Shown in pieces: positions 9,506 to 27,855 of a stretch of 64,000 bases of DNA. How positions within the stretch are numbered: the stretch's first letter is position 1; each line of letters starts with the position of its first letter. The translations under genes and the position numbers were made by a program. The DNA lies in NCBI GenBank assembly GCA_902765595.1, contig CACXAQ010000001.1, forward strand, positions 124,001 to 188,000. The letters run 5' to 3'. The notes beneath the pieces are model-generated. The model did no database searches, was not told the DNA's origin, and saw only the letters and a list, made by a program, of their open reading frames with translations. The stretch comes from Oscillospiraceae bacterium. Lineage in GTDB: Bacteria > Bacillota > Clostridia > Oscillospirales > Oscillospiraceae.

Positions 9506-9534
9506 TTGACATTAGACTATAGAAACGATAAAAT
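9506..9534 (+). promoter_or_regulatory. Promoter of the surface protein/peptide operon
   Basis: TTGACA at 9506-9511 and TAAAAT at 9529-9534 with a 17-base spacer. It leaves a leader of roughly 115 bases before the first gene. Confidence 0.85.
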
Positions 9535-9591: not shown

Positions 9592-9656
9592 TGGAAGAGG
9601 CACAAGAAATTGTATCAGACGGGTGCCATGCACCCTGAATGTAGGAGGTAGTGATA

Positions 9657-12600
9657 GTGAACAAGAGACTGACGAGAGTCCTGTCCCTGATCATGGTCCT
9701 TGCCATGTTCCTGTCCGTCAGCGTTCCGGCCTTCGCACTGGAGGACGGCTGGGATCGTGAGATCAAGGTGATCGGCGACAGCAGCGTCTTTGCTGACGAC
9801 ACTGCCGGCGACGATGAAAACGCCGCCGACGAAGGCGAGCCCGATGAGGGCTGGGACCGGGAGATCAGCGCGGGCGAGATCCGCGAGTTTAACGCTGATC
9901 CCGACAATGACGATCCCGACCCCAAGATGGAGCTCTTTACCGAGAATGAAGAGCTCGGCTACTCCGTGACCGTGGAGGCGCCCATGGGTGCGCTGCCCAC
10001 GCTGGCGGAGCTGCGCGCTGAACCCGTGGAGATCGAAGACATCCGCGAGCCTGTGGAAGAATTGCTCAAGGGCGAGCGGGAGATCCTGATCGCGCTGGAC
10101 ATCTCCTTCTGGCTGGGCGAGGATGAGATCGAGCCGGAGGAGCCTGTGCAGGTCATCATCTCTGCCCCCGAGCTGGAGGGACGGGACGATCTGCAGATCA
10201 TCCATCTTCCCGATGAGGACGATCCGGAGACCATCGACCTGATCCCGCAGGAGGACCTGGCCTTTACCCTGGGCCCCAACGAGATCGCTTTCCGGGCGGA
10301 CAGCTTCTCGTACTATGTTGTTTCGGGTCAAACCTATAGCAACATTACGATCCATTATGTGTATTACAATGAAGAGACAGGTTCATATGATGAATTGGGA
10401 GACAGCTCCAACGGCGTTTTCCCGTCGGGGACGGTAAATGCACAGACATTCTATAGCAACTGGCCATATCAAGGATGGAATGGTAAAACTCCATACAAGT
10501 TCCTGAAATATGACTTCGCCGGGTATACCTACAAAGAAACACGCCTGAATTCTCCGGGCAGCAACGGCACCCAGATTCGTCCGATCCTGCTAGTGGAGGA
10601 CACTGACGACTCGTGGATTAGAACCAGCTATAATTGGCGATATACAACTAATGGTAGCAGTTGGGGCACGCTATCAAGAAACAGCAATGTATATGTGATC
10701 TACGAGAAAAAGACGGTCACTTCCGGCGGTTCCTCCGGTGGCGAAGGCGGACAGACTCCCGTGGATGTGCCGGACCTTCCCGCCGGGAAGAGCGTGGAGC
10801 CCAACGGGGACGGTACCTATGATATCACCCTCAGCGTGACCGGCGTGGAGGCGACCCAGCAGACGGTCACCAAAGCCAATGTGATCATCGTTTTCGACGT
10901 TTCCGGCAGTATGAACGATGATATGAACGGGAATGAAACCAATGACAATAGTCGAAGGAGAATGACGATCGCGAAGCAAGCGGTCAATTCCCTCGCCGCA
11001 ACGCTCCTGAGTGAGGACCTGCAAGACGCGAACCATCACCAGCTGGTGCAGATGGCGCTGATCCAGTTCTCCACCACGGCGTCCTATGTGTTGCAAGATT
11101 TTACGGACGACTTGGACACCTTCACCGGTGCGGTGGACAGTCTTTCGGCCGACGGCGGCACCAACTGGGAGCATGCGCTGATCCTGGCCAACAGTATGGA
11201 GGTCGATCCCAACGCGAACACCTACGTCGTCTTTGTTTCCGACGGTGACCCGACGTTCCGTTACAGCCGAATGAACCTTACGGACAGTGAGCTTTATAAC
11301 AGCAATGCCTACGGTGTTGGTGAAGATTACGGCATCACTTTCGGCAGAGGCTACGAGTTTGATGAGTACAACCTGACTGCCGCGAAGGCGGAGGCCAAGG
11401 CGATCGTGGACGCCGGGAAGAGCTTTTATACCATCGGCCTGTCGGATGACGAAGATTTGGAAGGTCATATGCAGGATCTTACGACGTCCGCCGGAAGCCC
11501 CGCAGAAAACTATTTCTCCGCCAACGACTCGGATGACCTGAACGAAGCCTTTGCTACGATCGCGTCCGACGTTACGTCCCACATCGGCTTCACAGAGGTC
11601 AAGATCAACGACGGCGTGACGGAGCTGACTACGGTGGAATCCGACGCGCTGACCGGCACTCCCACCAATTTCGTCTACCGCAAGGGAACGCATACCGGCG
11701 ATGAGATCCCTCAGAATGATGTTTGGGCGGATGCACCTAAAGCGACCATTACCGGCGACAACCACGTGATCTGGGATACCTCCACCATCGGCGCCCTGGA
11801 GCCCGGCGTGACCTATTCCGTCACCTTCACCGTCTGGCCCAGCCAGGAGTCCTATAACATCATCGCCGATATCAACAACGGCATCATCCGGGACGCCCAG
11901 GGCAACATCATCCGCACCGGCACCCCCACGGAGGCCTATAACGCCCAGCCGCAGGAGATCCGGGACCAGATCACGATCGGTACAGACGGTAAGTATACCC
12001 TGAAGACCAACACCGGCGTTACAGTCTCTTACAAATTTAACGGCGCGGACGGCGAAGAAGCTGCCACCGTGACGAAGGAAGGCTCCATGCCGCTGGACAC
12101 CACCTACTTCTCCATGACCAAGGACTGGGTGAACGTGCTGCCGGACGATACCCGTACTGCACAGGTGCTGGCCAGGGTGGACGATGAGGACGGCAAGACT
12201 TACCTGGTGGACTCCAACGACGAATGGATCCTTGACGATGAAGGCAACAGGATCGAGCGGAACTGGAGCACGTTCAACTCCTGGAAGGACAAGGCGGTCT
12301 ACTACGTGGACCTGATCGTCACCAAGGGCGATGAGGACTATACCGAGGCTCGCCTGACCAGCGACAAGAATTGGACGTGGGACCAGATGTTTGTGGCTCC
12401 CGGCGTGCTGACCCATGACAAGACGGCTACCTCCGGCGCGATCGAGGTACGCGAGAGCGGCGACGACTATACCGTGCGCGAGAAACCCAGTGAGTCCTAC
12501 TACTGGGAACTGTTCGCGGAGATCTACCACCCCATGGTCATCAACGGGACTGCATGTGTCCTCCAGAAGGTTGACGAGGATGACACCTCCATTCCCGAAG

Positions 12601-14051
12601 GTCTGGCAGACGCGGAGAACACCTTCAACGGTGACTATTACAACATCGAAGGGACCGTGTACAAGAAGCTCGGTTCTGCCAGCGATGCCGTGATCAGTGC
12701 CGTGAACGAGCGCCGCAGTTATCTCAACCTGACCAAGACGGTCACCGGCGAGAACGCACCCGCAGATGCATACTTTACCTATACAATCAAGATGGAGAAT
12801 CCCGACGGGCTGTATCAGGGAGAAACGGGTTACACAGCGAACAATGACGATTTTTGGTTCTCGATCTACGATGATTATGACACGATCGTCAAGGACAGCA
12901 CGCTTGTGACCGGGGCAGAGGCCGAGGCAGGCAACACCGGTTATTGGCACTTCGCCAACGTCGAGAATGGCATGGAAATCACCGTCAAGCTCAAGGCTGG
13001 CTGGAACCTGCGTGTCACAAACCTGCTCTCTGGAACGACTTATGAGATCACCGAGAATGAAGCCGCGATGGATGATGGCTTTGTCTTCACCAGCGTCGAG
13101 GCTACAGCCAAGCTGAATGGCGCCGTACAGACTTATGAGCCCACGATCGTCGGCGCAAACATCAGCGGTGAGATCGAGAATGCCAACACCGACTATGCCG
13201 TTACCTACACAAACAATTATCTTGGCGTGTACTACGTGTATCACTCCTCTGACAATACTGTTGAGCGCTTCCCGATGGCGGTTGACGGCGTCAGAGCTGT
13301 TGACGTCGACCTCGTTGCCATGACGAAGGATAATTTCCTCTATGGCGGTTACTATCACGATTACTCCGGCAAGAAGGTGGATCCCAAGACGCTGGAGTAT
13401 ACCAATGATAAAGCGACTGACGAGGGCGCCACGCCATACACGGGTGAGGTGATGGAGGCATGGAAAGGCGGAAACCCGTATTCGGACAGCGGCTTCGAGC
13501 TTGATCCGGAACCCAATACGGTATACTACCTCAAGGAGGTCCCGGAAGACACCTACCTGATTCCGTACCTGCACTACACCTTCTATTCGGAGTCGAAGAA
13601 GATCGGTACGGCATGGCTCGTCTCCGATACCGACGACTACTTCTACCTGGAGACCGGCTTCCTGCTCACACCGGGTAACGGTGGTTCTCCGAGGCGCATT
13701 GCCAACATGTACACGCAGTTTACGGTCACCTGCAACACCGGCGGTAAGACTCAGATCCTTAAACCCACTGAGGTCTTCGACGGTGAGCATGGTGAAGGCG
13801 TTACCTTCCACAGCCCGACTGCCGGCTACCTGACGATCGCAAGGGTCATCAACGGGAGCGAGCGGCTGATCCAGAACGGCGACAAGATCCAGCAGTACTG
13901 GGTCACCCCGGACGGACTGCTAGTCACCGGCAAGTGGGTCCGCACCATTACCCAAGGCTTTGGTGAGAACGATGTTTACACCGCGATCGCAGACAATAAG
14001 ACGGACGAAGCTGAGACCTCCGTCATCTGTTTGAATAGCGACATCGCTTAA
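9657..14051 (+). CDS. Large secreted VWA and pilin-like isopeptide-domain protein
   Basis: A protein of 1464 residues with an N-terminal signal peptide ending near AFA. An acidic segment repeats GWDREI twice. A von Willebrand A domain (about 405-625) has the MIDAS motif DVSGS near residue 414, and a Spy0128/FctA-like domain (about 1020-1190) has LTKTV, YEITE and TYTNNY segments suited to a Lys-Asn isopeptide bond. No LPxTG motif or C-terminal anchor helix is present, so its attachment is unclear. GTG at 9657 is preferred because AGGAGG ends eight bases upstream; an in-frame GTG at 9651 is too close. It probably acts as an adhesin or surface filament component. It is the first gene of the peptide operon. 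Confidence 0.85.
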   Translation: MNKRLTRVLSLIMVLAMFLSVSVPAFALEDGWDREIKVIGDSSVFADDTAGDDENAADEGEPDEGWDREISAGEIREFNADPDNDDPDPKMELFTENEELGYSVTVEAPMGALPTLAELRAEPVEIEDIREPVEELLKGEREILIALDISFWLGEDEIEPEEPVQVIISAPELEGRDDLQIIHLPDEDDPETIDLIPQEDLAFTLGPNEIAFRADSFSYYVVSGQTYSNITIHYVYYNEETGSYDELGDSSNGVFPSGTVNAQTFYSNWPYQGWNGKTPYKFLKYDFAGYTYKETRLNSPGSNGTQIRPILLVEDTDDSWIRTSYNWRYTTNGSSWGTLSRNSNVYVIYEKKTVTSGGSSGGEGGQTPVDVPDLPAGKSVEPNGDGTYDITLSVTGVEATQQTVTKANVIIVFDVSGSMNDDMNGNETNDNSRRRMTIAKQAVNSLAATLLSEDLQDANHHQLVQMALIQFSTTASYVLQDFTDDLDTFTGAVDSLSADGGTNWEHALILANSMEVDPNANTYVVFVSDGDPTFRYSRMNLTDSELYNSNAYGVGEDYGITFGRGYEFDEYNLTAAKAEAKAIVDAGKSFYTIGLSDDEDLEGHMQDLTTSAGSPAENYFSANDSDDLNEAFATIASDVTSHIGFTEVKINDGVTELTTVESDALTGTPTNFVYRKGTHTGDEIPQNDVWADAPKATITGDNHVIWDTSTIGALEPGVTYSVTFTVWPSQESYNIIADINNGIIRDAQGNIIRTGTPTEAYNAQPQEIRDQITIGTDGKYTLKTNTGVTVSYKFNGADGEEAATVTKEGSMPLDTTYFSMTKDWVNVLPDDTRTAQVLARVDDEDGKTYLVDSNDEWILDDEGNRIERNWSTFNSWKDKAVYYVDLIVTKGDEDYTEARLTSDKNWTWDQMFVAPGVLTHDKTATSGAIEVRESGDDYTVREKPSESYYWELFAEIYHPMVINGTACVLQKVDEDDTSIPEGLADAENTFNGDYYNIEGTVYKKLGSASDAVISAVNERRSYLNLTKTVTGENAPADAYFTYTIKMENPDGLYQGETGYTANNDDFWFSIYDDYDTIVKDSTLVTGAEAEAGNTGYWHFANVENGMEITVKLKAGWNLRVTNLLSGTTYEITENEAAMDDGFVFTSVEATAKLNGAVQTYEPTIVGANISGEIENANTDYAVTYTNNYLGVYYVYHSSDNTVERFPMAVDGVRAVDVDLVAMTKDNFLYGGYYHDYSGKKVDPKTLEYTNDKATDEGATPYTGEVMEAWKGGNPYSDSGFELDPEPNTVYYLKEVPEDTYLIPYLHYTFYSESKKIGTAWLVSDTDDYFYLETGFLLTPGNGGSPRRIANMYTQFTVTCNTGGKTQILKPTEVFDGEHGEGVTFHSPTAGYLTIARVINGSERLIQNGDKIQQYWVTPDGLLVTGKWVRTITQGFGENDVYTAIADNKTDEAETSVICLNSDIA

Positions 14052-14074
14052 TATGAGAAAATGAGGTGATTAAA

Positions 14075-14368
14075 ATGTCGAAAAAGAAAGCATTTACTCC
14101 TTCCATTTTTCTCGGGGGCTTTAACCCTCCCGGCCCCGGCGGCGGCGGCGGCTACGGCAGCGACCAGAGCGGCAACGACCCGGTAGGTGGGAACGCTGTC
14201 GGTCCTGTGCCTTACGCCGACTGGGCAAAGAGCCTTGGCCCTGACGCCGGATCCGGCAGTTTCGAGGCCTATGGTCAGTGGTGGGCTGATAACGGATTCA
14301 GCATGGACGCTTGGAACGAGTTCAACCCCAACACCTCCTTTACCTGGGGCCCCGAAAACGACGAATAA
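14075..14368 (+). CDS. Small Gly/Pro/Trp-rich peptide, candidate modified-peptide precursor
   Basis: A 97-residue protein without signal peptide or membrane segment. It has a basic start (MSKKKAFTPSIFLGGF), a Pro/Gly-rich stretch with five Gly in a row, and a C-terminal part rich in Trp, Asn, Phe and acidic residues, ending TWGPENDE. No family is recognised. A near-perfect Shine-Dalgarno (GAGGTGAT) before ATG 14075 points to high expression. A hairpin just downstream would favour this transcript over the genes behind it. The next genes encode an HPr-kinase-like protein and a PqqD-like protein, so it may be the substrate of a peptide-modifying system. This role is inference. Confidence 0.7.
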   Translation: MSKKKAFTPSIFLGGFNPPGPGGGGGYGSDQSGNDPVGGNAVGPVPYADWAKSLGPDAGSGSFEAYGQWWADNGFSMDAWNEFNPNTSFTWGPENDE

Positions 14369-14377
14369 ACCAAGAAA

Positions 14378-14419
14378 AAGAATAGCGTGGGGGAAAATAC
14401 TCCACGCTATTCTTCTTTA
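14378..14419 (+). terminator. Attenuating terminator between the peptide gene and the kinase gene
   Basis: A 13-base inverted repeat (14378-14390 with 14402-14414) is followed by CTTT. It lies six bases before the ATG of the next gene, so expression of that gene requires read-through. Confidence 0.8.
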
Positions 14420-14425
14420 AAACGC

Positions 14426-15163
14426 ATGAGCAATGGAATTTATGAGCTGAATCTGGCTGGCCACACGCTGCGTTATGCCTTCCGCCGTGTCAGGACCAAG
14501 TATTTTTTCCTGCCCCTGCTGCACCGTTCTGCTTCGGAGGGCTGGGACATTAAGATGACGGCGGAGGATCTGGCGCGTGCGAGGATCGCCTCCCCGCCGC
14601 AGTACACGGAGGCCTATGCGGAATATCGCGGCCTTCTGGCCCCAACCGCCCGGGCTCTCCAGGCCTTTGACTGCTGCATCTTTCATGCTGCCGCCATCGT
14701 TACGCAGGGGGGCTGCTGGCTTCTCGCTGCCCCAAGCGGTACCGGGAAGACTACCCAATATCGCAACTGGCTGCGTCTGCATCCCGGCGAGTTGGGGATC
14801 ATCTCCGGCGATATGCCGGTGCTGGAGCTGCGGCAGGACGGCGTTTGGGTGCACCCCAGCCCTTGGAACGGGAAGGAGCGATACCGCGGTTTCGAGCCGG
14901 CAAAGCTTGCTGGGGTGGTGCTGCTCCGGCAGGGCAGTGAGAATTGTATAGAGTTTTTGGAGCCGCGCCAGGCGATCCCGCCGCTTTTTGGGCAGCTTGC
15001 CGCCCTTCCCGATACCGAAGCGCAGACACGCGCCGTGTGCCGCATTATGGATGGTGTCCTGCGATCTGCGGCCTGCTGGCAGTATACGAATCGCGGAGAC
15101 GACGACTCTACAGAACTCTTGCGTGAGAAGATCCGAAGGGAGGATGAACGGCGTGGTGTATAA
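14426..15163 (+). CDS. HPr-kinase-like P-loop protein (peptide kinase type)
   Basis: A 245-residue protein with a Walker A loop APSGTGKTT near residues 103-111 and a following GIISGDMPVL segment. It resembles the C-terminal half of HPr kinase as found in lasso-peptide tailoring kinases. In the paeninodin cluster a homologue phosphorylates a serine of the peptide. Here it follows the 97-residue peptide gene and precedes a PqqD-like protein, so phosphorylation of that peptide is a fair hypothesis. ATG 14426 is chosen because the upstream GTG at 14387 lies inside the terminator stem; no good ribosome-binding site is visible. It is too short and off-context for true HprK. Confidence 0.75.
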   Translation: MSNGIYELNLAGHTLRYAFRRVRTKYFFLPLLHRSASEGWDIKMTAEDLARARIASPPQYTEAYAEYRGLLAPTARALQAFDCCIFHAAAIVTQGGCWLLAAPSGTGKTTQYRNWLRLHPGELGIISGDMPVLELRQDGVWVHPSPWNGKERYRGFEPAKLAGVVLLRQGSENCIEFLEPRQAIPPLFGQLAALPDTEAQTRAVCRIMDGVLRSAACWQYTNRGDDDSTELLREKIRREDERRGV

Positions 15164-15455
15164 AGCCAGGAGCGGTGTGCTGCTGACAGAGGTCTGCGGC
15201 GAATATATTTTAGTCGCCGCCAGATCTGCACGCCAGTTTTGCCCCTTTGTGACGGTCCTGAATGAAAGCTCGGCGTTCATTTGGAAGTATTTGGTCGACG
15301 GTGCATCCCTTGCGGACCTGGAGTCTGCCGTCTCTGAAGAGTATGAGATCGATGAGCCGGTAAAAGTTCGTTCGCTTTTGATGGACTTGCTCGAGAAACT
15401 GGAAACCAATGGTTATTTGCTTCGCATGGAGCAAGGAGGAGAGCATGAAGAATAA
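15153..15455 (+). CDS. PqqD family peptide-binding protein (RRE)
   Basis: A protein of about 100 residues with the PqqD pattern: an N-terminal beta hairpin, a central NESSAFIWKYLVDG segment like the family's LN..a..iW.l.dG, and a helical C terminus with YEID and a Leu-rich end. PqqD-type RiPP recognition elements bind leader peptides and present them to tailoring enzymes. It overlaps the kinase gene by 11 bases. GTG 15153 sits nine bases after GGGAGG; the ATG at 15144 directly abuts that site and is less likely, though possible. Its partner is presumably the 97-residue peptide. Confidence 0.82.
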   Translation: MVYKARSGVLLTEVCGEYILVAARSARQFCPFVTVLNESSAFIWKYLVDGASLADLESAVSEEYEIDEPVKVRSLLMDLLEKLETNGYLLRMEQGGEHEE

Positions 15456-15729
15456 AAAACTGTGGGCTGTTGTTGCAATCATGCTTATAGTGCTGGGCGC
15501 TCTGCTGATCTGGCAGCCCTGGAATACGAATACGCCTGCGTCTGACACGGTTAATGAGCCTCTTGCAGAGACAGCCACGGAGACCGCTGCCCCGTCTGAG
15601 AATGGAGAAATCGACTCTTCCGCGGAAATCGGCGAGATCATCCCCGAGCCTACTCCCGAATTTGTGGACCCTGCTGATTTTGAGGACGCGACCGAGGAGG
15701 CCGAAGGCGACGAGCAGGGCGGGCTGTGA
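15445..15729 (+). CDS. Small membrane-anchored acidic protein
   Basis: A 94-residue protein with one N-terminal hydrophobic helix (about residues 6-24) preceded by MKNKK, then a long acidic, Thr/Pro-containing tail that contains no Cys. It may be a single-pass membrane protein with an external tail or have an uncleaved signal sequence. No family is recognised. AAGGAGGA lies just upstream, the start overlaps the PqqD-like gene by 11 bases, and its stop overlaps the start of the next gene, so it is part of the same translationally coupled cassette. It may be an export partner or a second substrate. Confidence 0.7.
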   Translation: MKNKKLWAVVAIMLIVLGALLIWQPWNTNTPASDTVNEPLAETATETAAPSENGEIDSSAEIGEIIPEPTPEFVDPADFEDATEEAEGDEQGGL

Positions 15730-16952
15730 TGCCGGAGCTCACTACGGGCGAGCGTCTGTTTTTGCAGGCGCTCAGCTGTGCGATCCGGGGTGACCGGCTG
15801 ACGCTTGGAGCGGAGCTGCAGGTTTCTGAATGGCTTGAGCTGCGCACGCTTGCCTATCAACACCGCGTGCTGCCCCTTTTGGCGGAGGCGATGGTTCCCG
15901 GCACGGCCTTTTCTCGGCTGCCCGGGGAGTGGCCCCGTCTGCAGGAACTCGCCCGGTCGCGGACAGTGTCTCAGGCAGCACGAACGGCGGAGTTCCTGGA
16001 TTTGTTGGATCAGCTTTCCCAACGCGGTCTGAATCCGGTCGTGATGAAGGGAATCGTGTGTCGCTCCCTCTATCCCCACCCTGAGCAGCGTCTATCCAGC
16101 GATGAGGACCTGCTGATCTCGCCGGAGGAAAGGAGCGTCTACCATGAGGCTTTCCTTGCCTGCGGACTGAGGCTTGCGGAAGCGTCCTCGGTGCTGCTTT
16201 CTGCGGACGAGATCACCTATGAGGATCCTGAACGCGAACTGTGCATTGAGCTGCATTTGAAGCCCTTTCCCGGTGAGGACAGTATGTGGGGGGACTTTAA
16301 TCACGCCTTTCAGAACGTGTTTGAGCGGAGCACCTGCGTGAATATTTACGGCCGTATGGTTCGAACTATGGAGCCCACGGATCATTTGCTGTACTTGCTC
16401 TGCCATGCGTATAAGCATTTGATCCACAGCGGCGTCGGCTTGCGCCAGATCTGCGACCTGTGCCTGTTTGCCCAACGCTTCGGGGGCGTGATCGACTGGC
16501 ACCGCTTACAAAGCGAGTGCTCCGCGCTGGGGATCGAGTACCTGGCTTCGGCCATGTTTCTTATCGGGCAGCGTTGGCTGGAAATCCCCGCGCCCACATC
16601 TTTTACGGCTCCGGCCCCGGATGAGATCCCATTGCTGAAGGATTGCCTCAGCGGCGGACTGTACGGCGCGGAGGACAAGGACCGCGTGCACAGCCGTGCG
16701 TATACGCTGGACGAGATCCGTGCGAGCAGGGAAGGAAGGCGGCCACACGGTACCGCACGCTCTCTCTTTCCCGGAAGAAGCTCCCTTGCCGGACGCTATC
16801 CCTATCTGAGGAAGCGGCCCTGGCTGCTTCCAGCGGCGTGGGTACAGCGCCTTTGGGGGTACGTGATACGGGAAAGAGCGAATCCCGGAAAAAGCATTCA
16901 GATCGGCAGGGAGCGAATTGCGCTACTAAAACAGTACCAGATCCTTCCCTGA
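15729..16952 (+). CDS. PF14907-type nucleotidyltransferase
   Basis: A 407-residue protein with the signature of the uncharacterised nucleotidyltransferase family NTP_transf_5: MKGIVCRSLYPHPEQR followed by SSDEDLLI near residues 105-130, where the acidic pair would bind metal. Members occur in lasso-peptide and other RiPP clusters next to HPr-kinase-like and PqqD-like proteins, as here, and also in polysaccharide loci. It may transfer a nucleotide to, or otherwise modify, the phosphorylated peptide; the reaction is unknown. The TGATG overlap with the previous gene couples translation. A terminator follows and closes the unit. Confidence 0.78.
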   Translation: MPELTTGERLFLQALSCAIRGDRLTLGAELQVSEWLELRTLAYQHRVLPLLAEAMVPGTAFSRLPGEWPRLQELARSRTVSQAARTAEFLDLLDQLSQRGLNPVVMKGIVCRSLYPHPEQRLSSDEDLLISPEERSVYHEAFLACGLRLAEASSVLLSADEITYEDPERELCIELHLKPFPGEDSMWGDFNHAFQNVFERSTCVNIYGRMVRTMEPTDHLLYLLCHAYKHLIHSGVGLRQICDLCLFAQRFGGVIDWHRLQSECSALGIEYLASAMFLIGQRWLEIPAPTSFTAPAPDEIPLLKDCLSGGLYGAEDKDRVHSRAYTLDEIRASREGRRPHGTARSLFPGRSSLAGRYPYLRKRPWLLPAAWVQRLWGYVIRERANPGKSIQIGRERIALLKQYQILP

Positions 16953-16962
16953 CGGGGAATTC

Positions 16963-16998
16963 AAAAGACGGACGCCGCAAGAGCAGCGCCCGTCTTTT
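16963..16998 (+). terminator. Intrinsic terminator closing the peptide cassette
   Basis: AAAAGACGG (16963-16971) pairs with CCGTCTTTT (16990-16998), with further GC pairing inside the loop and a T-rich tail. It separates the peptide genes from the polysaccharide operon. Confidence 0.8.
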
Positions 16999-17065
16999 CT
17001 GTTGCCTGAAGTGGAATACAAGTCCGGAATAAGGCCGCAGGATACGCTCTTTTTTGCAAAAAACC

Positions 17066-17094
17066 TTGTGCTCGCAAGGAAACAATGATATACT
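17066..17094 (+). promoter_or_regulatory. Promoter of the exopolysaccharide operon
   Basis: TTGTGC at 17066-17071 and TATACT at 17089-17094 with 17 bases between. Start near 17101 fits the chosen ATG at 17133 and rules out the upstream in-frame ATG at 17085. Confidence 0.75.
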
Positions 17095-17132
17095 TTAATA
17101 TTGAGATTGTACGTATTCGGGACGGGAGAGCC

Positions 17133-18917
17133 ATGGAGAATCCGCTGGAAGAAAAACGGGCGTTGTTCAATTCGCTCCATACGCTCCGGGGACGCTGGAA
17201 GGAAGGGACCTTTCGCGAGATCCTGGATGACTGGCGCTGGATCTTTACGTACAGCAAGCGTTATAAGCTGGCGATCCTGTTTTATACCCTTTTGGGTATC
17301 GTGAGCACCAGCTTCGGTTTGGCTGCCAGCGTGGCCGGGAAAATCACCATCGATATCATCACCGGACATGACAGCAGCCGCCTGGGCCTGATGATTGCCA
17401 TTATGGTGGGCAGCGCCGCCTTCAGCCTGCTCTTTTCCAGCGCGATCAACCGCATCTCCACCAAGCTGAGCATCGACATCAACAACGATATCCAGGCGGA
17501 TATTTTTGATCAGATCATCGATGTGGACTGGCAGGCCATCAACAGATACAGCAGTGGGGATCTGCTGAATCGCTTCAACAGCGATGTGAGCACCGTCAGC
17601 AAAAATGCCATCAGCTGGCTGCCGTCCATCGTGATCGCACTTTATAACTTTATTGCCACCTTTGCCCTGATCTGGCACTATAACAAGGTGATGTCCCTGC
17701 TGTCCTTTGCCAGCGCGCCTGTGATGCTGCTCCTTTCCAAGTACCTGATCCGCAAGCAGCGGGAATATGCCAATCGGATGAAACAGACCGGCAGCGAAAT
17801 GATGGGCTTTGAGGTGGAGACCTTTTATAATTTTGATACCATCAAGTCCTTCGGCATCATGGGGAACTACGGCAAGAAGCTGCGGGACTGGCAGAAGAGG
17901 CTGAAAGCCATCAGCCTGGAGTATAATCTCTTTTCCATCAAGACCAACGTTTTCCTGTCTGTCCTGGGGCTGATCGTGCAGTATGCCGCTTTCGGATACT
18001 GCCTGTTCCTGCTCTGGAAGGACCGGATCACTTACGGTACGATGACGCTGTTTCTGGAACAGCGGGTCCGCCTGTCCAATGCGTTTAACAGCGTGGTGGG
18101 GATCGTCCCTGCCTTCCTGTCCAGCTCTGTTTCGGCCCACCGCATCCGGGAGTTGATTGAACTCCCCAGGGAGAAGCATCTTCCGGAAACACAGCAGCTC
18201 CAGGCAATGGCGGAGCAGGGGGTGGAGGTCCGGATGGACGACCTGAGCTTTGCCTATACGGAGAACAAGCAGGTTATAGTATCCTCCTCTTTCCGGGCTT
18301 CTCCCGGAGAGATCGTGGCGCTGGTTGGCCCTTCCGGCGAAGGGAAAACCACGATGATCCGCCTTGCGCTGGGCCTGATCCATCCCGATGAAGGTACCGC
18401 CTATCTGCAGACCGGAGATGGGACGCAAGTTGCCTGCAATGCGGACAGCAGGGCGCTGTTTTCGTATGTCCCCCAGGGAAATGCCATTTTGTCCGGAACC
18501 ATTGCGGAGAATCTGCGCATGGTGAAGGAAGATGCCGACGACGAGGAGATCATCGAGGCCCTGAAGATCGCCTGCGCCTGGGACTTTGTATCCCAAATGC
18601 CGGAGACGATCCACAGCAAGCTGGGGGAACGGGGCCGCGGCCTGTCGGAGGGCCAGGCACAGCGGATCGCTATTGCCCGTGCCGTCCTGCGGGATGCGCC
18701 GATCCTGCTGCTGGATGAGGCCACCTCTGCCCTGGATGTGACCACGGAGCGGCGGGTACTGCGGAATATCATCCGTCAGCGGCCCAATAAAACCTGCATC
18801 GTTACGACCCACCGGCCCACCGTGCTGAGCATGTGTCAGCGAGTATATCGCGTGATTGACAAGCGCGTGACGGAACTGAGCGAAGAAGAATCCAGCCGGA
18901 TGGCAATGGACTTTTGA
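17133..18917 (+). CDS. ABC exporter, fused permease and ATPase
   Basis: A 594-residue half-transporter with six membrane helices (about residues 45-320) and a C-terminal ATPase with Walker A GPSGEGKTT near 400, signature LSEGQ near 503, Walker B ILLLDEATS and the switch His in THRPT. The signature has Glu in place of the usual second Gly. Such exporters secrete peptides, lipids or polysaccharide intermediates. No C39 peptidase domain is present. It follows the peptide cassette and could export its product, as in lasso-peptide clusters. However, it has its own promoter and is the first gene of the polysaccharide operon. GGGAGAG supports ATG 17133. Confidence 0.9.
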   Translation: MENPLEEKRALFNSLHTLRGRWKEGTFREILDDWRWIFTYSKRYKLAILFYTLLGIVSTSFGLAASVAGKITIDIITGHDSSRLGLMIAIMVGSAAFSLLFSSAINRISTKLSIDINNDIQADIFDQIIDVDWQAINRYSSGDLLNRFNSDVSTVSKNAISWLPSIVIALYNFIATFALIWHYNKVMSLLSFASAPVMLLLSKYLIRKQREYANRMKQTGSEMMGFEVETFYNFDTIKSFGIMGNYGKKLRDWQKRLKAISLEYNLFSIKTNVFLSVLGLIVQYAAFGYCLFLLWKDRITYGTMTLFLEQRVRLSNAFNSVVGIVPAFLSSSVSAHRIRELIELPREKHLPETQQLQAMAEQGVEVRMDDLSFAYTENKQVIVSSSFRASPGEIVALVGPSGEGKTTMIRLALGLIHPDEGTAYLQTGDGTQVACNADSRALFSYVPQGNAILSGTIAENLRMVKEDADDEEIIEALKIACAWDFVSQMPETIHSKLGERGRGLSEGQAQRIAIARAVLRDAPILLLDEATSALDVTTERRVLRNIIRQRPNKTCIVTTHRPTVLSMCQRVYRVIDKRVTELSEEESSRMAMDF

Positions 18918-18932
18918 GAGGGGGTGCAGACC

Positions 18933-19682
18933 ATGATCGATTTGCATACCCATGTACTTCCCGGCGTGGATGACGGCTCCCGGAGCATGAAAGAGTCTCT
19001 GGAGCTGCTTACCATGGCGGCAGACAGCGGGGTGGAGATTCTGGTAGCGACGCCCCATTGCAATATTCCGGACGAATTTGATAATTACGTGAGCCCAGAG
19101 CTGGAGGATCTCTTTCGAAAACTGGATGAGGCGCGAAAAAATGCCGGTATCCCGATCCGACTCCTGCGGGGGATGGAGATTTTCGCAACGCCGGAGCTGC
19201 CGCAGCTTCTGCGGGACGGAAAAGTCTGGACCTTGAACGGAACGAAATACTTTTTGATGGAATTCGCCTTCGACGAAGACCCGGATTATTGCAGCCGCAT
19301 ACTGCGCCGCTGCAGGGAACTGGGCTTTTGGCCCATCGTCGCCCATCCGGAACGCTACTATTTCCTTCAGGAGGATCTGCAGCTCGCCTTCGAATGGTGT
19401 GTGGAAGGATACGGACTGCAGTTAAACAAGGGGAGCCTTTTGGGCCGCTTCGGATCTGCTCCGCAGCGGACAGCGGAGCTGCTGCTGCAGCACGGCCTCG
19501 CCGCCTGCGTCGCCAGTGACGCCCATAACCCCAAGCGGCGCAGCACCAATATGCTGGATGTGCGCGGGCTCCTGCTGGAGGAATACGGAGAAGCTTACAT
19601 GAGGCTCCTTTTGGAAGAAAACCCGAAACGCATCCTGGACGGGAGAGCGCTGCTTGGCTATGAGCCCATCCCGTTCCGCTGA
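18933..19682 (+). CDS. CpsB/YwqE-type PHP-domain tyrosine phosphatase
   Basis: A 249-residue manganese-dependent phosphatase with the PHP opening MIDLHTHVLPGVDDGS, a TPHCN motif, a central HPERY motif and SDAHN near the C terminus, all metal-binding positions of CpsB/YwqE. It removes phosphate from the tyrosine-rich tails of capsule tyrosine kinases and so tunes polymer length and output. Two matching kinases lie 0.9 kb downstream. ATG 18933 is nine bases from GAGAGGGGG; the upstream GTG at 18924 abuts it. Confidence 0.92.
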   Translation: MIDLHTHVLPGVDDGSRSMKESLELLTMAADSGVEILVATPHCNIPDEFDNYVSPELEDLFRKLDEARKNAGIPIRLLRGMEIFATPELPQLLRDGKVWTLNGTKYFLMEFAFDEDPDYCSRILRRCRELGFWPIVAHPERYYFLQEDLQLAFEWCVEGYGLQLNKGSLLGRFGSAPQRTAELLLQHGLAACVASDAHNPKRRSTNMLDVRGLLLEEYGEAYMRLLLEENPKRILDGRALLGYEPIPFR

Positions 19683-24782: not shown

Positions 24783-25946
24783 ATGCCTGTTCATGTGCTG
24801 CAGGTTTTTTCTACGCTGAATAATGGCGGAGCGGAAAACAGAATCATGGATGTGTTCCGGCATGTTGATCAGGAACGGGTAATTATTGATTTTGCCGTGG
24901 TGCATGGGGGCGAGCAGTTTTTCACCCGGGAGATCCTGCAGACCAAGAGCAAGATCTATACGCTTCCAGATCCCAGGAAGGGCTTGATCAGGAATTATCA
25001 GGCCTGGAGAAAGTTTTTCGCAGAACACCCCTTTCAGGCGGTGCATACCCACGTGTCCTGGTATGGGGGGATCGTTCTTCTGGCGGCCAAGCGGGCCGGG
25101 ATCCCGCACAGGGTCGCTCACGCGAGAAGCTCAGAAGAACCGTCCATGTCTTTTCCGCGGAAAGCGGCAAGGACCTTTGGGAGGCTTCTCTTTGCGTGGA
25201 CTGCCACGGAGAGATTGGCAATTTCGGAGGATGCGGCCAGGAATATCTTTGGCCCTGCCTGTGTAAAAAGGCACAGGTATCAATACGTCCCCAATTCCAT
25301 AGACCAGACGAAGTATTCCACCCTGGAAGGGGAGGACAGAGCGCGGCTGCGTAAAAGCCTTGGGATTCCTGCCGGCGTTCACGCATACGTAACGGTCGCG
25401 AGCTTCAGGCGGCCGAAAAATCACGTGTTCCTGCTGGAAATCGCCAAGGCGCTCCGGGAAAAGGGAGATCCTTTCCTCCTGTTCCTGGTGGGAGACGGCG
25501 CTCTCCGGCAGGAGATCGAGGCGCGGATCCAGGCGCTGGGCCTTGGCGAGCAGCTGCGCTTGCTGGGCGTGCGAGGGGACGTGCCGCAGATCCTATGCGC
25601 TTTTGACGCATTGATCCTTCCTTCTTTGTATGAGGGACTGGGCGGCGTGGTCCTGGAGGCACAGATGGTGGGAGTTCCTGCGATCGTGTCCACAGGCGTC
25701 CCGGAAGAGGCGGACGTAGGGATCCGTATGGTGGAATATGTTTCCCTGCAGGAACCGCCCTCAAAGTGGGCGGATGTTATCCTCGGGAAGATCGAGAGCT
25801 TTTCCTGGAACAGGGAGAGCGCGGTTCAGGCCTTCCGGGAAAAAGGCTTTACCATTGAGAAAACGGCAAAGCAGTATCTGCTTGCCTATGGAATATCTGA
25901 GACGACCGCCATAGATGCGATTGTCGATCTCCGGGAGACGGAATAG
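24783..25946 (+). CDS. GT4 family glycosyltransferase (EpsF-like)
   Basis: A 387-residue GT-B fold retaining glycosyltransferase. The N-terminal VFSTLNNGGAENRIMD segment, the HTHVSWYGGI motif and the C-terminal PSLYEGLGGVVLEAQ (the E-x7-E nucleotide-sugar site) mark family GT4. It closely resembles EpsF-type enzymes that add a sugar to the lipid-linked repeat unit in the cytoplasm. The donor cannot be read from sequence. A GAGGTGAT site precedes the ATG. Confidence 0.88.
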   Translation: MPVHVLQVFSTLNNGGAENRIMDVFRHVDQERVIIDFAVVHGGEQFFTREILQTKSKIYTLPDPRKGLIRNYQAWRKFFAEHPFQAVHTHVSWYGGIVLLAAKRAGIPHRVAHARSSEEPSMSFPRKAARTFGRLLFAWTATERLAISEDAARNIFGPACVKRHRYQYVPNSIDQTKYSTLEGEDRARLRKSLGIPAGVHAYVTVASFRRPKNHVFLLEIAKALREKGDPFLLFLVGDGALRQEIEARIQALGLGEQLRLLGVRGDVPQILCAFDALILPSLYEGLGGVVLEAQMVGVPAIVSTGVPEEADVGIRMVEYVSLQEPPSKWADVILGKIESFSWNRESAVQAFREKGFTIEKTAKQYLLAYGISETTAIDAIVDLRETE

Positions 25947-25956
25947 GAGTAGCTAT

Positions 25957-27855
25957 ATGTGCGGAATCTGCGGCTTCATAACGGAAAAAGCGACCGATCT
26001 TTCCGCCCTCCGTACGATGAACAACACCATGGAGCACAGAGGACCCGATGATTCGGGAGAGGAGATTTTTCCCTTCTCCGAAAAGGCAAGGATCGGCTTG
26101 GCCCATCGAAGGCTGTCCATTCTGGACTTGAGCGAAAACGGCCATCAGCCCTTTCATTCCGCCAATGACGATGTGATCCTTGTTTTCAATGGAGAGATTT
26201 ATAATTATCGGATCTTGAAAAAAGAGCTGGGGCACTATCCTTTCCGAAGCGAATGCGACACGGAAGTGATCCTTGCCGCCTACCTGGAATGGGGAGAGGA
26301 GTTCCTGGAACACCTGGATGGGATGTTTGCGATCGCTCTGTGGGACCGCAAAAAGCAAACGCTGCTTCTGGCGCGGGATCGCATCGGGAAAAAGCCGCTG
26401 TATTACTACTATGATGGGAAACAGCTGGCTTTCGGGTCTACCCTGCAGCCGATCATGGCATTTCCCGGGATCCGGCGGGAGCTGAACCGGGATGTTCTTC
26501 CGCGATACCTGTTTAACAGTTACATTACCGGGGATCAGACGATCCTGAAAAATACATTTCGTGTTCAGCCCGGCGAGTGTGTGGTATACGCTTCCTCCGG
26601 GTTGAGAAAAAAACAATACTGGGATCTGATATCAGAGTATGAGCGGATGTGCCGGGAACCCTTCGAGGATTATTCCGAGGCGAAGGAGGCGCTCTGCGCC
26701 GCGCTGAGGGAATCCGTTTCACGCCGCCTGGCGGCGGACGTACCGGTGGGGACCTTTCTGAGCGGAGGCTACGATTCTTCTCTCGTTACCGCGGTCGCAC
26801 AGAAACTTTGCGATAAACCGATCAAGACCTTTTCCATCGGGTTCGAAGAGAAGGAGTATGACGAGGCTCCCTATGCCGAGGCCGTGGCGAAATACCTGGG
26901 AACGGAGCATGTCACCCACTATGTTTCGGAAGCGGACATGGTGAGACTGGTTGGAGAGATTCCCCAATACTATGATGAGCCTTTTGCGGATTCCTCGCAG
27001 CTCCCATCCATGCTGGTGGCAGAGCTGGCCGCAAAAGAGGTTAAAGTCGTACTCACCGGCGACGGGGGGGACGAACTGTTCTGTGGCTATCGGATGTACG
27101 AAAAACTGCAGCAGGCGCAGCGGATCGAGCCGGCTGCCGTTGTGATCAGAAAAGTGCTGGGCGAGAGGGGAGCTGTGCTCGAAAAGCTTCCGTTCCCCGT
27201 TCGGGCGATCCTGCAAAACAGGGACGACAGGTTCAGAACCCAGCTGGGCAGAGAGAGCTATAAGGAGAGCATTGCCAGGATGCTTGGCTGCGACCCTGCG
27301 TCCCTGCCCTATGATGAGAGACGGATCCCCGAAAAGAACTGGCAGAAACGCAGAATGCTGCTGGATTCCGTCACCTATCTCCCGGACAACAATCTTTGTA
27401 AGGTGGACCGCGCCAGCATGCGATCCTCGCTGGAGGCCCGCAGCCCGCTTCTGGATCTGGGCTTCGCAGAGTGTTCCTTCCGCGTCCCCCAGGGGATGAA
27501 GTACAGGAACGGGGACAAGAAGCATATTCTGAAAGATCTGGCCTATGATCAGATCCCCCGGGAGCTTCTCGACCGCCCCAAAAAGGGCTTTTCCGTTCCG
27601 GTCGACAAATGGCTGCGCGGCGTGCTGAAGGAGGATCTCCTTTCTGTTACAGATCGAGCCTATTTATCGGAACAAGGGATATTTGAACCCGAGTTTACGT
27701 CGGCTTATGTCCGGGAATACCTCTTTATGGGGGATCAGGGTTCCTTCTCCGGACAGAACCGCTCCCACATCGTCTGGCCCTTGTATATGTTCCAGAAATG
27801 GTATCAGTTTTATTGGACCTCTCATACGCATTGCGGTCAAAGTCAAGATAACTAA
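25957..27855 (+). CDS. asnB: Glutamine-dependent asparagine synthetase family amidotransferase
   Basis: A 632-residue two-domain enzyme. The N-terminal class II glutaminase starts MCGICGF with catalytic Cys2, and the synthetase domain carries the PP-loop LSGGYDSS near residue 268 plus VLTGDGGDELF. It moves ammonia from glutamine to an adenylated carboxylate. Inside a polysaccharide operon with a uronic-acid pathway, it may amidate a uronic acid instead of aspartate, as the AsnB-like WbpS does for O-antigen sugars. Ordinary asparagine synthesis is also possible. The start is fixed by Cys2, which follows only the initiator Met. Confidence 0.88.
   Translation: MCGICGFITEKATDLSALRTMNNTMEHRGPDDSGEEIFPFSEKARIGLAHRRLSILDLSENGHQPFHSANDDVILVFNGEIYNYRILKKELGHYPFRSECDTEVILAAYLEWGEEFLEHLDGMFAIALWDRKKQTLLLARDRIGKKPLYYYYDGKQLAFGSTLQPIMAFPGIRRELNRDVLPRYLFNSYITGDQTILKNTFRVQPGECVVYASSGLRKKQYWDLISEYERMCREPFEDYSEAKEALCAALRESVSRRLAADVPVGTFLSGGYDSSLVTAVAQKLCDKPIKTFSIGFEEKEYDEAPYAEAVAKYLGTEHVTHYVSEADMVRLVGEIPQYYDEPFADSSQLPSMLVAELAAKEVKVVLTGDGGDELFCGYRMYEKLQQAQRIEPAAVVIRKVLGERGAVLEKLPFPVRAILQNRDDRFRTQLGRESYKESIARMLGCDPASLPYDERRIPEKNWQKRRMLLDSVTYLPDNNLCKVDRASMRSSLEARSPLLDLGFAECSFRVPQGMKYRNGDKKHILKDLAYDQIPRELLDRPKKGFSVPVDKWLRGVLKEDLLSVTDRAYLSEQGIFEPEFTSAYVREYLFMGDQGSFSGQNRSHIVWPLYMFQKWYQFYWTSHTHCGQSQDN

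Follow-up and report, generated by a model that had tools for sequence, protein, structure and literature searches.

Can an HPr-kinase-like protein, a PqqD-like protein, a nucleotidyltransferase and an exporter, which occur together in paeninodin lasso peptide clusters, form a system that acts on a linear peptide? The question is raised by a cassette of plus-strand genes in a stretch of 64,000 nucleotides (the window) from an Oscillospiraceae bacterium (assembly GCA_902765595.1, contig CACXAQ010000001.1, positions 124,001 to 188,000). The initial annotation, made from the window alone, listed a peptide, a kinase, a PqqD-like RiPP recognition element (RRE; RiPP, ribosomally synthesized and post-translationally modified peptide), a membrane protein, an NTP_transf_5 protein and an ABC exporter, and these six open reading frames (ORFs) were confirmed in this order at 14075-18917; a large surface protein, a hairpin of fixed sequence, an [FY]xxP leader motif and a conserved tail of the membrane protein were not in its inventory. 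Because the surface-protein gene upstream belongs to the conserved arrangement, the span of the cassette is to be widened to 9651. We propose, with a probability of about 0.65, that the cassette encodes a system for the modification of a linear peptide that resembles the Linear Polyphosphorylated Peptides (LPPs) of Popov et al. (May 2026, PMC13381572) and is without a leader peptidase. Below, WIN is the cassette of the window, and L-numbers and G-numbers denote the loci and genomes compared.

A candidate peptide gene adjoins one clade of HprK-like kinases

The candidate substrate peptide (14075-14368, +, 97 aa, ATG start), identified from the ORF list and by leave-one-out homology, has a basic N-terminus, a degenerate [FY]xxP motif (AFTP), a Gly/Pro-rich linker and a Trp-rich end. 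Used as a phmmer query, it matched the peptides of L035 (E = 1e-6) and L039 (3e-5); those of L034 and L040 were recognised from their place and N-terminus, that of L122 (genome G367) was a profile match (2.5e-22) among 400 genomes of the family, where G000, G004 and G104 also matched but are rows of that profile, and those of L161 and L162 came to light through a search with the hairpin pattern described below. In these eight cassettes (WIN, L034, L035, L161, L039, L040, L122 and L162) the peptide gene lies directly 5' of a kinase gene of one clade. The leader part [FY]xxPx[VI] is present in seven of the eight peptides, the window reading AFTP, and a WxxP at the leader position in none. Leave-one-out profiles run against 21,628 ORFs recovered seven of the eight (E = 6e-8 to 2e-20, the window peptide at 7.6e-11; best unrelated ORF 0.84), each adjoining a clade kinase on its upstream side, and since the window peptide and six others are recovered in this way, it is more than a chance ORF. 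Among 391 genomes of the class, the peptide profile found only the genome of the window itself and one spurious match. Four weak matches were rejected, those in G148 and G1059 lying within long unrelated ORFs and those in G074 and G107 containing stops. The AlphaFold2 model of the peptide was uninformative (pLDDT 53).

The kinase of the window had a match in 30 of 150 family genomes at E = 1e-3, and a kinase profile in 80 of 394 genomes of the order at 1e-30; 39 of the 42 family places outside the window's own genome were studied, plus one peptide match, and from the order only 19 places and one peptide genome. These places, with further loci from the genome contigs, provided 66 kinases for a tree, in which 12 (WIN, L034, L035 twice, L036-L041, L121 and L122) formed one clade with 100/100 support, in a bootstrap that has not fully settled. 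Two loci outside the tree scored high with the clade profile (L152, 252 bits; L162, 286 and 332 bits; the other 54 kinases at most 158). The record labels of clade members include Oscillospiraceae (L034, L035), Lachnospiraceae (L036), Clostridia (L037) and Clostridiales (L038). The initial annotation had named co-occurrence of the peptide with the kinase and RRE genes as its test, which did not refute it; the co-occurrence held in several genomes and not in all: no recognisable peptide was seen in L121, nor in the DNA examined of L037 and L038. L041, of the same subclade as the latter two, lies near a contig end, as does L036. Genome G151 has two tandem copies of the cassette (L161 and L035), each including surface protein and hairpin, and their kinases share 78% identity; L162 (6726-8736) has a peptide, a hairpin and two tandem clade kinases, followed by housekeeping-type genes.

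The RRE covaries with the leader of the peptide

The discrete PqqD-like RRE (15144-15455, +) stood as annotated, with a match to PF05402 at 36.1 bits (cut-off 23.4) and to PDB profiles of LppB (9x8z, 23.3 bits) and of the lasso B1 proteins TfuB1 (6jx3, 24.0), TbiB1 (5v1u, 22.9) and PbaB1 (9x90, 21.2), between which these scores do not separate. An RRE-profile match lies beside all 12 clade kinases. Because D70 of LppB hydrogen-bonds the leader Tyr of YxxP in the published structure (PMC13381572), the RRE column aligned with D70 was chosen for testing. Leader peptides were picked mechanically within 1 kb upstream of a kinase, by a rule given its final form after the alignment had been seen, and 18 loci had both peptide and RRE. 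A leader Tyr went with an RRE Asp in 11/11 loci and a leader Phe with another residue in 7/7 (Fisher p = 3e-5, a guide only, because related loci are not independent); the D70 column was the best of 84 RRE columns (next p = 0.011). The covariation persisted without the clade (Asp in 10/10 Tyr loci vs 0/3 Phe loci, p = 0.0035), and within it L040 combines Tyr with Asp, and L034, L035, L039 and L122 have Phe without Asp. L161 (Phe, Ala), added later, agrees. Outside the count stand L065 and L068, in which no RRE was found, and the window (AFTP, RRE Leu). Synteny and covariation together support a pairing of peptide and RRE.

A hairpin of fixed sequence lies between the peptide and kinase genes

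Between the stop of the peptide gene and the start of the kinase gene, folding and a sequence pattern identified a stem-loop (14378-14414, +; -25.1 kcal/mol, z -6.9) followed by a T-rich stretch. Its stem, AATAGCGTGGGG...TCCACGCTATT, is fixed and stands at the same place in the window, L034, L035, L161, L039, L122 and L162, that is in five of the six peptide cassettes known beforehand, and in seven of eight when the two found through the hairpin are included; at this place L040 and L152 carry hairpins with a different sequence. A search for the exact pattern gave a single match in each of the genomes G000, G004, G367 and G150 and two in G151, which has two cassettes; the pattern was not found in G178, G104 and G199, where clade kinases are present, nor in G109 and G228. 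Of 81 genomes of the genus, four contained it, one of them new (G1167), and at that place a surface protein, a peptide, the hairpin and two clade kinases were found. Fourfold-degenerate sites of the kinase genes are only 21-46% identical in 19 of 21 locus pairs (L034/L161 61%, L035/L161 76%), and because these sites are so diverged, the stem is far more conserved than expected under neutral evolution. A generic terminator does not need a fixed sequence, and we regard the element as attenuator-like. Rfam gave only sraA for 13900-17200, at 27.7 bits (cut-off 56). With up to two mismatches, half-sites of the hairpin matched five times in the window, two of these being the hairpin itself, vs 1.65 expected by chance.

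The kinase clade is without a nearby signal peptidase I

A signal peptidase I (SpI) gene lay within 2 kb of none of the 12 clade kinases vs 27 of the 54 non-clade kinases (Fisher p = 0.0009; the SpI profile was built from order loci, and both groups include stretches that end early), and none was found nearby in L152, L161 and L162 either. The genome of the window has one SpI match, below cut-off and about 67 kb away. An [FL]xxE[DE]-like leader end, a pattern written after the sequences had been seen, is present in seven of eight SpI-adjacent peptides vs none of the eight cassette peptides. As no SpI gene is nearby and no lasso B2 protease was found (see below), the leader is probably retained.

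In the order, clusters of LPP type in which an SpI gene lies no more than 2 kb from an HprK-like kinase are frequent, several of them with an RRE (e.g. L042, L045, L047, L059, L136, L138). Another group of HprK-like kinases (L056, L063-L075 and L078; 15 rows of the tree, 100/99 support) adjoins YxxP peptides that mostly contain Cys, and L065, L069, L071 and L072 have an extra ORF with a CxxC-rich end, SPASM/radical-SAM-like by eye.

A large surface protein and a stalk protein accompany the peptide

The gene upstream of the peptide (9651-14051, +) encodes a surface protein of 1466 aa with VWA, DUF7604 and DUF7601 domains (PF13519, PF24558, PF24547) and a signal-peptide-like N-terminus; no sortase signal was seen by eye in this protein, and a strong promoter-like site (9506-9534, 11 of 12 matches) precedes it, such sites numbering 13 in 11 kb vs 5.5 in shuffles. 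Related proteins, about 1470-2550 residues long, are encoded upstream of all eight peptides and, in L121 and L152, upstream of the kinase. The N-terminal regions differ from protein to protein, with VWA in that of the window and Listeria-Bacteroides repeats in those of L034, L121 and L122, and the C-terminal ends of seven aligned proteins share a YW.T.D...V.G pattern, their pairwise links being chain-like rather than all-to-all. A leave-one-out C-terminal profile found each of ten surface proteins (1.6e-6 to 9e-26; that of the window at 6e-18). The surface-protein profile found eight proteins in the 400 family genomes, four of them its own rows; among the other four, those of G199 and G178 adjoin a clade kinase, the cassette of G178 having first been found in this way, and those of G221 and G282 have no clade kinase in the 19 and 18 kb fetched, respectively. 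As the protein of G282, without a nearby kinase, scores in the same range, the C-terminal module is not exclusive to the cassette. An argument for linkage from the overlap between the best matches of this profile and the genomes matched by the peptide profile was dropped as circular, these genomes being rows of the profiles themselves (three of four for the peptide, all four for the surface protein).

Between the RRE and NTP_transf_5 genes lies a gene for a membrane-anchored, acidic, low-complexity protein of 94 aa (the 'stalk'; 15445-15729, +), recognised by this position in eight clade cassettes (WIN, L034, L035 twice, L036, L039, L040 and L122); in L152 it follows the NTP_transf_5 gene. Its C-terminal tail mostly resembles [IV][IV].[IV]P...G[GE] and is degenerate in the window. 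Stalk-like proteins also stand beside the non-clade kinases L042, L055, L124, L126, L136 and L138, and such ORFs are about fourfold denser near kinases (17 in 378 kb, eight of them the clade's own, vs 15 in 1364 kb elsewhere).

These neighbours raise the alternative that the surface protein or the stalk is the modified substrate and the small peptide an adaptor that brings in RRE and kinase. As a neighbour, the surface protein is no less constant than the peptide, L121 and L152 retain it with kinase and RRE in the absence of a standard peptide, and the tail of the stalk is conserved in most relatives. RREs, however, bind leader motifs, and such a motif near the N-terminus was seen in the small peptide but in neither of the other two proteins (the long proteins were not scanned throughout); the covariation ties the RRE to the peptide, and a surface protein with a Sec-type N-terminus would leave the cell by another route. 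We therefore consider a substrate other than the peptide unlikely.

Kinase, nucleotidyltransferase, exporter and the capsule locus

The kinase gene (14387-15163, +) begins at GTG 14387 or ATG 14426, the ATG being more likely since residues 1-14 have a pLDDT below 50 in an AlphaFold2 model with a mean of 88.0. No Pfam or NCBIfam family matched the protein above cut-off. A Foldseek search of the PDB with this model returned HprK/P of L. casei first (E = 2.5e-5, probability 1.00) and phosphoenolpyruvate carboxykinases (PEPCKs) next, which bears out the annotation as an HPr-kinase-like P-loop protein, and His100, the P-loop Lys121 and Asp142 are invariant in ten aligned kinases. The annotations of the NTP_transf_5 protein (15729-16952, +; PF14907, 143.5 bits) and of the MsbA-like ABC exporter (17085-18917, +; ABC_membrane and ABC_tran matches, none to a peptidase domain) proved equally sound. 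The motif of the former, SSDEDLLI in the window, is present in 11 of 11 clade NTP_transf_5 genes, the L040 copy being split: in this genome (G104; L040:7814-9076, -) the gene consists of two adjoining ORFs, and the kinase and RRE ORFs are whole. A terminator-like hairpin (16963-16998, +) follows the NTP_transf_5 gene of the window (63-nt segment, -28 kcal/mol, z -3.7).

Beyond the exporter, and outside the cassette, a CpsB/CapC protein (18933-19682, +), assigned by family match, opens a locus for capsule or exopolysaccharide with a Wzz-type kinase, EpsG, glycosyltransferases, a pyruvyl transferase and a flippase-type protein; ten further proteins downstream of CpsB were scanned, two of them without a family match. 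With CpsB, the Wzz-type kinase, EpsG and glycosyltransferases directly downstream, the genes could be accessories of the capsule locus and the peptide incidental, but the unit of peptide, hairpin and kinase is conserved despite saturated synonymous divergence, and searching with the hairpin led to one more cassette that has a peptide, which makes this explanation quite improbable.

Comparison with known peptide modification systems

The idea that a kinase/nucleotidyltransferase system acts on a linear peptide without a lasso cyclase is supported, the peptide gene adjoining those of kinase and RRE in several genomes; the expectation that such a system would be new in kind did not stand, as a paper of May 2026 (PMC13381572) describes LPPs with the same kinase, RRE, nucleotidyltransferase and exporter. 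According to the main text of that paper, the set comprises a precursor, the HprK-like LppK, the RRE LppB, the SpI-like LppS, the MsbA-like LppD and the nucleotidyltransferase LppN, LppK polyphosphorylates Ser3 of a linear core, LppS cuts the leader, the clusters often lie in or near capsular loci of Bacilli, and the roles of LPPs and paeninodins are not known. The cassette resembles lppAKBSDN of Paenibacillus alginolyticus, as described there, in its [Y/F]xxP-type leader, HprK-like kinase, discrete RRE, nucleotidyltransferase, MsbA-like exporter, polysaccharide locus and absence of a macrolactam cyclase. In contrast to the published clusters, the window cassette is without a nearby SpI-like peptidase corresponding to LppS, its leaders and those of its relatives are without the HQxIxFETxxS part of the LPP motif YxxPxVLxHQxIxFETxxS, and stalk, surface protein and fixed-sequence hairpin are additional. 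The words clostridi, oscillospir, surface, membrane, calcium and lipoprotein do not occur in the main text of PMC13381572, and no description of an SpI-less, surface-protein-linked variant was found in titles and abstract starts of the open-access literature, the scope of the search, with subscription papers outside it.

That the genes form a paeninodin-type lasso cluster, with cyclase and B2 protease encoded at some other place in the genome, was rejected as highly improbable: kinase, RRE, nucleotidyltransferase and exporter are common to paeninodin clusters (PMC9266682, PMC13381572), and the kinase, B1 and NTP_transf_5 proteins and exporter of the cassette are like those of the paeninodin and pseudomycoidin clusters (PadeK, PsmK, PsmN), but cyclase, B2 protease and WxxP leader are absent from the window cassette. 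The absence of a cyclase, stated in the initial annotation for the adjacent genes, extended to all seven genomes searched, in which NF033535 was below cut-off or absent, with no match at all in four (G004, G367 and those of L034 and L035). The completeness of G000 is just 84%, but the other genomes agree. The only cyclase relative in the window's own genome is AsnB (25915-27855 of the window; 228 bits, cut-off 525), and the B2 family PF13471 (Transglut_core3) reached 21.1 bits there (cut-off 26), inside a 733-aa ORF; of eight genomes, one (G123) has a match over the cut-off, of 27.4 bits and within an ORF of 755 aa. The HPr-rel-A system pairs a PqqD-like protein with an HPr-kinase-like protein. 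The cassette shares with it the PqqD-like chaperone, at a score (TIGR04353 PqqD_rel_X, 18.7 bits) far under the cut-off of 35.

Proposed function of the cassette

In the LPP-like system proposed here, the surface protein and the peptide would be transcribed together, and the hairpin would limit read-through into the enzyme genes, leaving the peptide in excess over the enzymes. The RRE would capture the basic [FY]xxP N-terminus and present the peptide to the HprK-like kinase, which, by analogy with LppK, PadeK and ThcoK, would put at least one phosphate on a Ser or Thr. The NTP_transf_5 protein may then cap this phosphate with a sugar or a nucleotide, in analogy with PsmN: PsmK phosphorylates a lasso peptide, and a hexose on the lasso peptide depends on PsmN (PMC9266682). 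Export through the MsbA-like exporter would take place with the leader probably still attached, and the product, judging from synteny, may act at the cell surface with the co-encoded surface protein, and perhaps with the capsule. Phosphorylation, capping and export are thus ascribed by analogy, and we infer the acceptor residue, what becomes of the leader and the connection with the surface protein.

Several observations weigh against this reading. As to the peptide, AFTP of the window is the weakest leader motif of the set and not a [YF]xxP; the L040 peptide is without the core and was missed by the profile of the others, so that its assignment follows from place and leader alone; and no Ser or Thr position is invariant across the eight peptides, which thus have no conserved acceptor. 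In L121, surface protein, kinase and RRE are accompanied by neither a recognisable peptide nor a nearby NTP_transf_5 gene, L152 has only a divergent small ORF in place of the peptide (YLIP, with an RRE Gly), which falls outside the covariation rule and would count against it, and no RRE or NTP_transf_5 gene was found in the stretch fetched of L162. The TM-scores of the kinase model are modest to low (HprK/P 0.27 by query and 0.41 by target; PEPCK at most about 0.53 by query), and its catalytic DD reads GD in all 12 clade kinases and also in many relatives; in lasso kinases, according to PMC9266682, all four residues of the His-Lys-Asp-Asp motif are needed. The exporter is parted from the other cassette genes by the terminator-like hairpin, lies on the same strand within 5 kb of only 6 of the 12 clade kinases, and adjoins CpsB in WIN, L034, L039 and L122, so that it could equally be one of the capsule genes. 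Archaeal-type SpI genes over cut-off are present elsewhere in two of eight genomes (those of L034 and L035), where the leader could therefore be cut in trans. LppN, finally, was without visible effect in the heterologous host described in PMC13381572.

Beyond the proposal above, it is conceivable, though doubtful as a joint reading, that a phosphate- or sugar-capped, uncleaved mini-domain peptide, in some relatives with an EF-hand-like acidic loop, serves as structural partner (anchor or cross-link) of surface protein, stalk and capsule, and that the hairpin is more than a terminator and has a dedicated role in regulation or recombination. By eye, the L161 and L122 peptides contain a near-perfect EF-hand loop. 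A strict loop pattern, which 3-10% of shuffles match, was tested without L161 and L162 and matched two of seven small proteins, L122 and a probable chance stretch of L040, and not the window peptide; Pfam found no EF-hand or dockerin in the seven of eight cassette peptides scanned. An EF-hand core was accordingly dropped as a firm claim.

Implications for the clade

The clade-wide lack of a nearby SpI gene suggests that the clade as a whole can do without the SpI peptidase, and the covariation suggests that leader recognition follows a rule of one residue, Asp with Tyr and no Asp with Phe. The hairpin is a marker of the cassette by which more such loci may be found in DNA searches. One kind of surface protein beside the peptide in eight of eight cassettes points to a specific candidate partner and to a role that can be tested, and if the mini-domain reading is true, a RiPP would serve in these bacteria as a structural component of the cell surface instead of a diffusible product.

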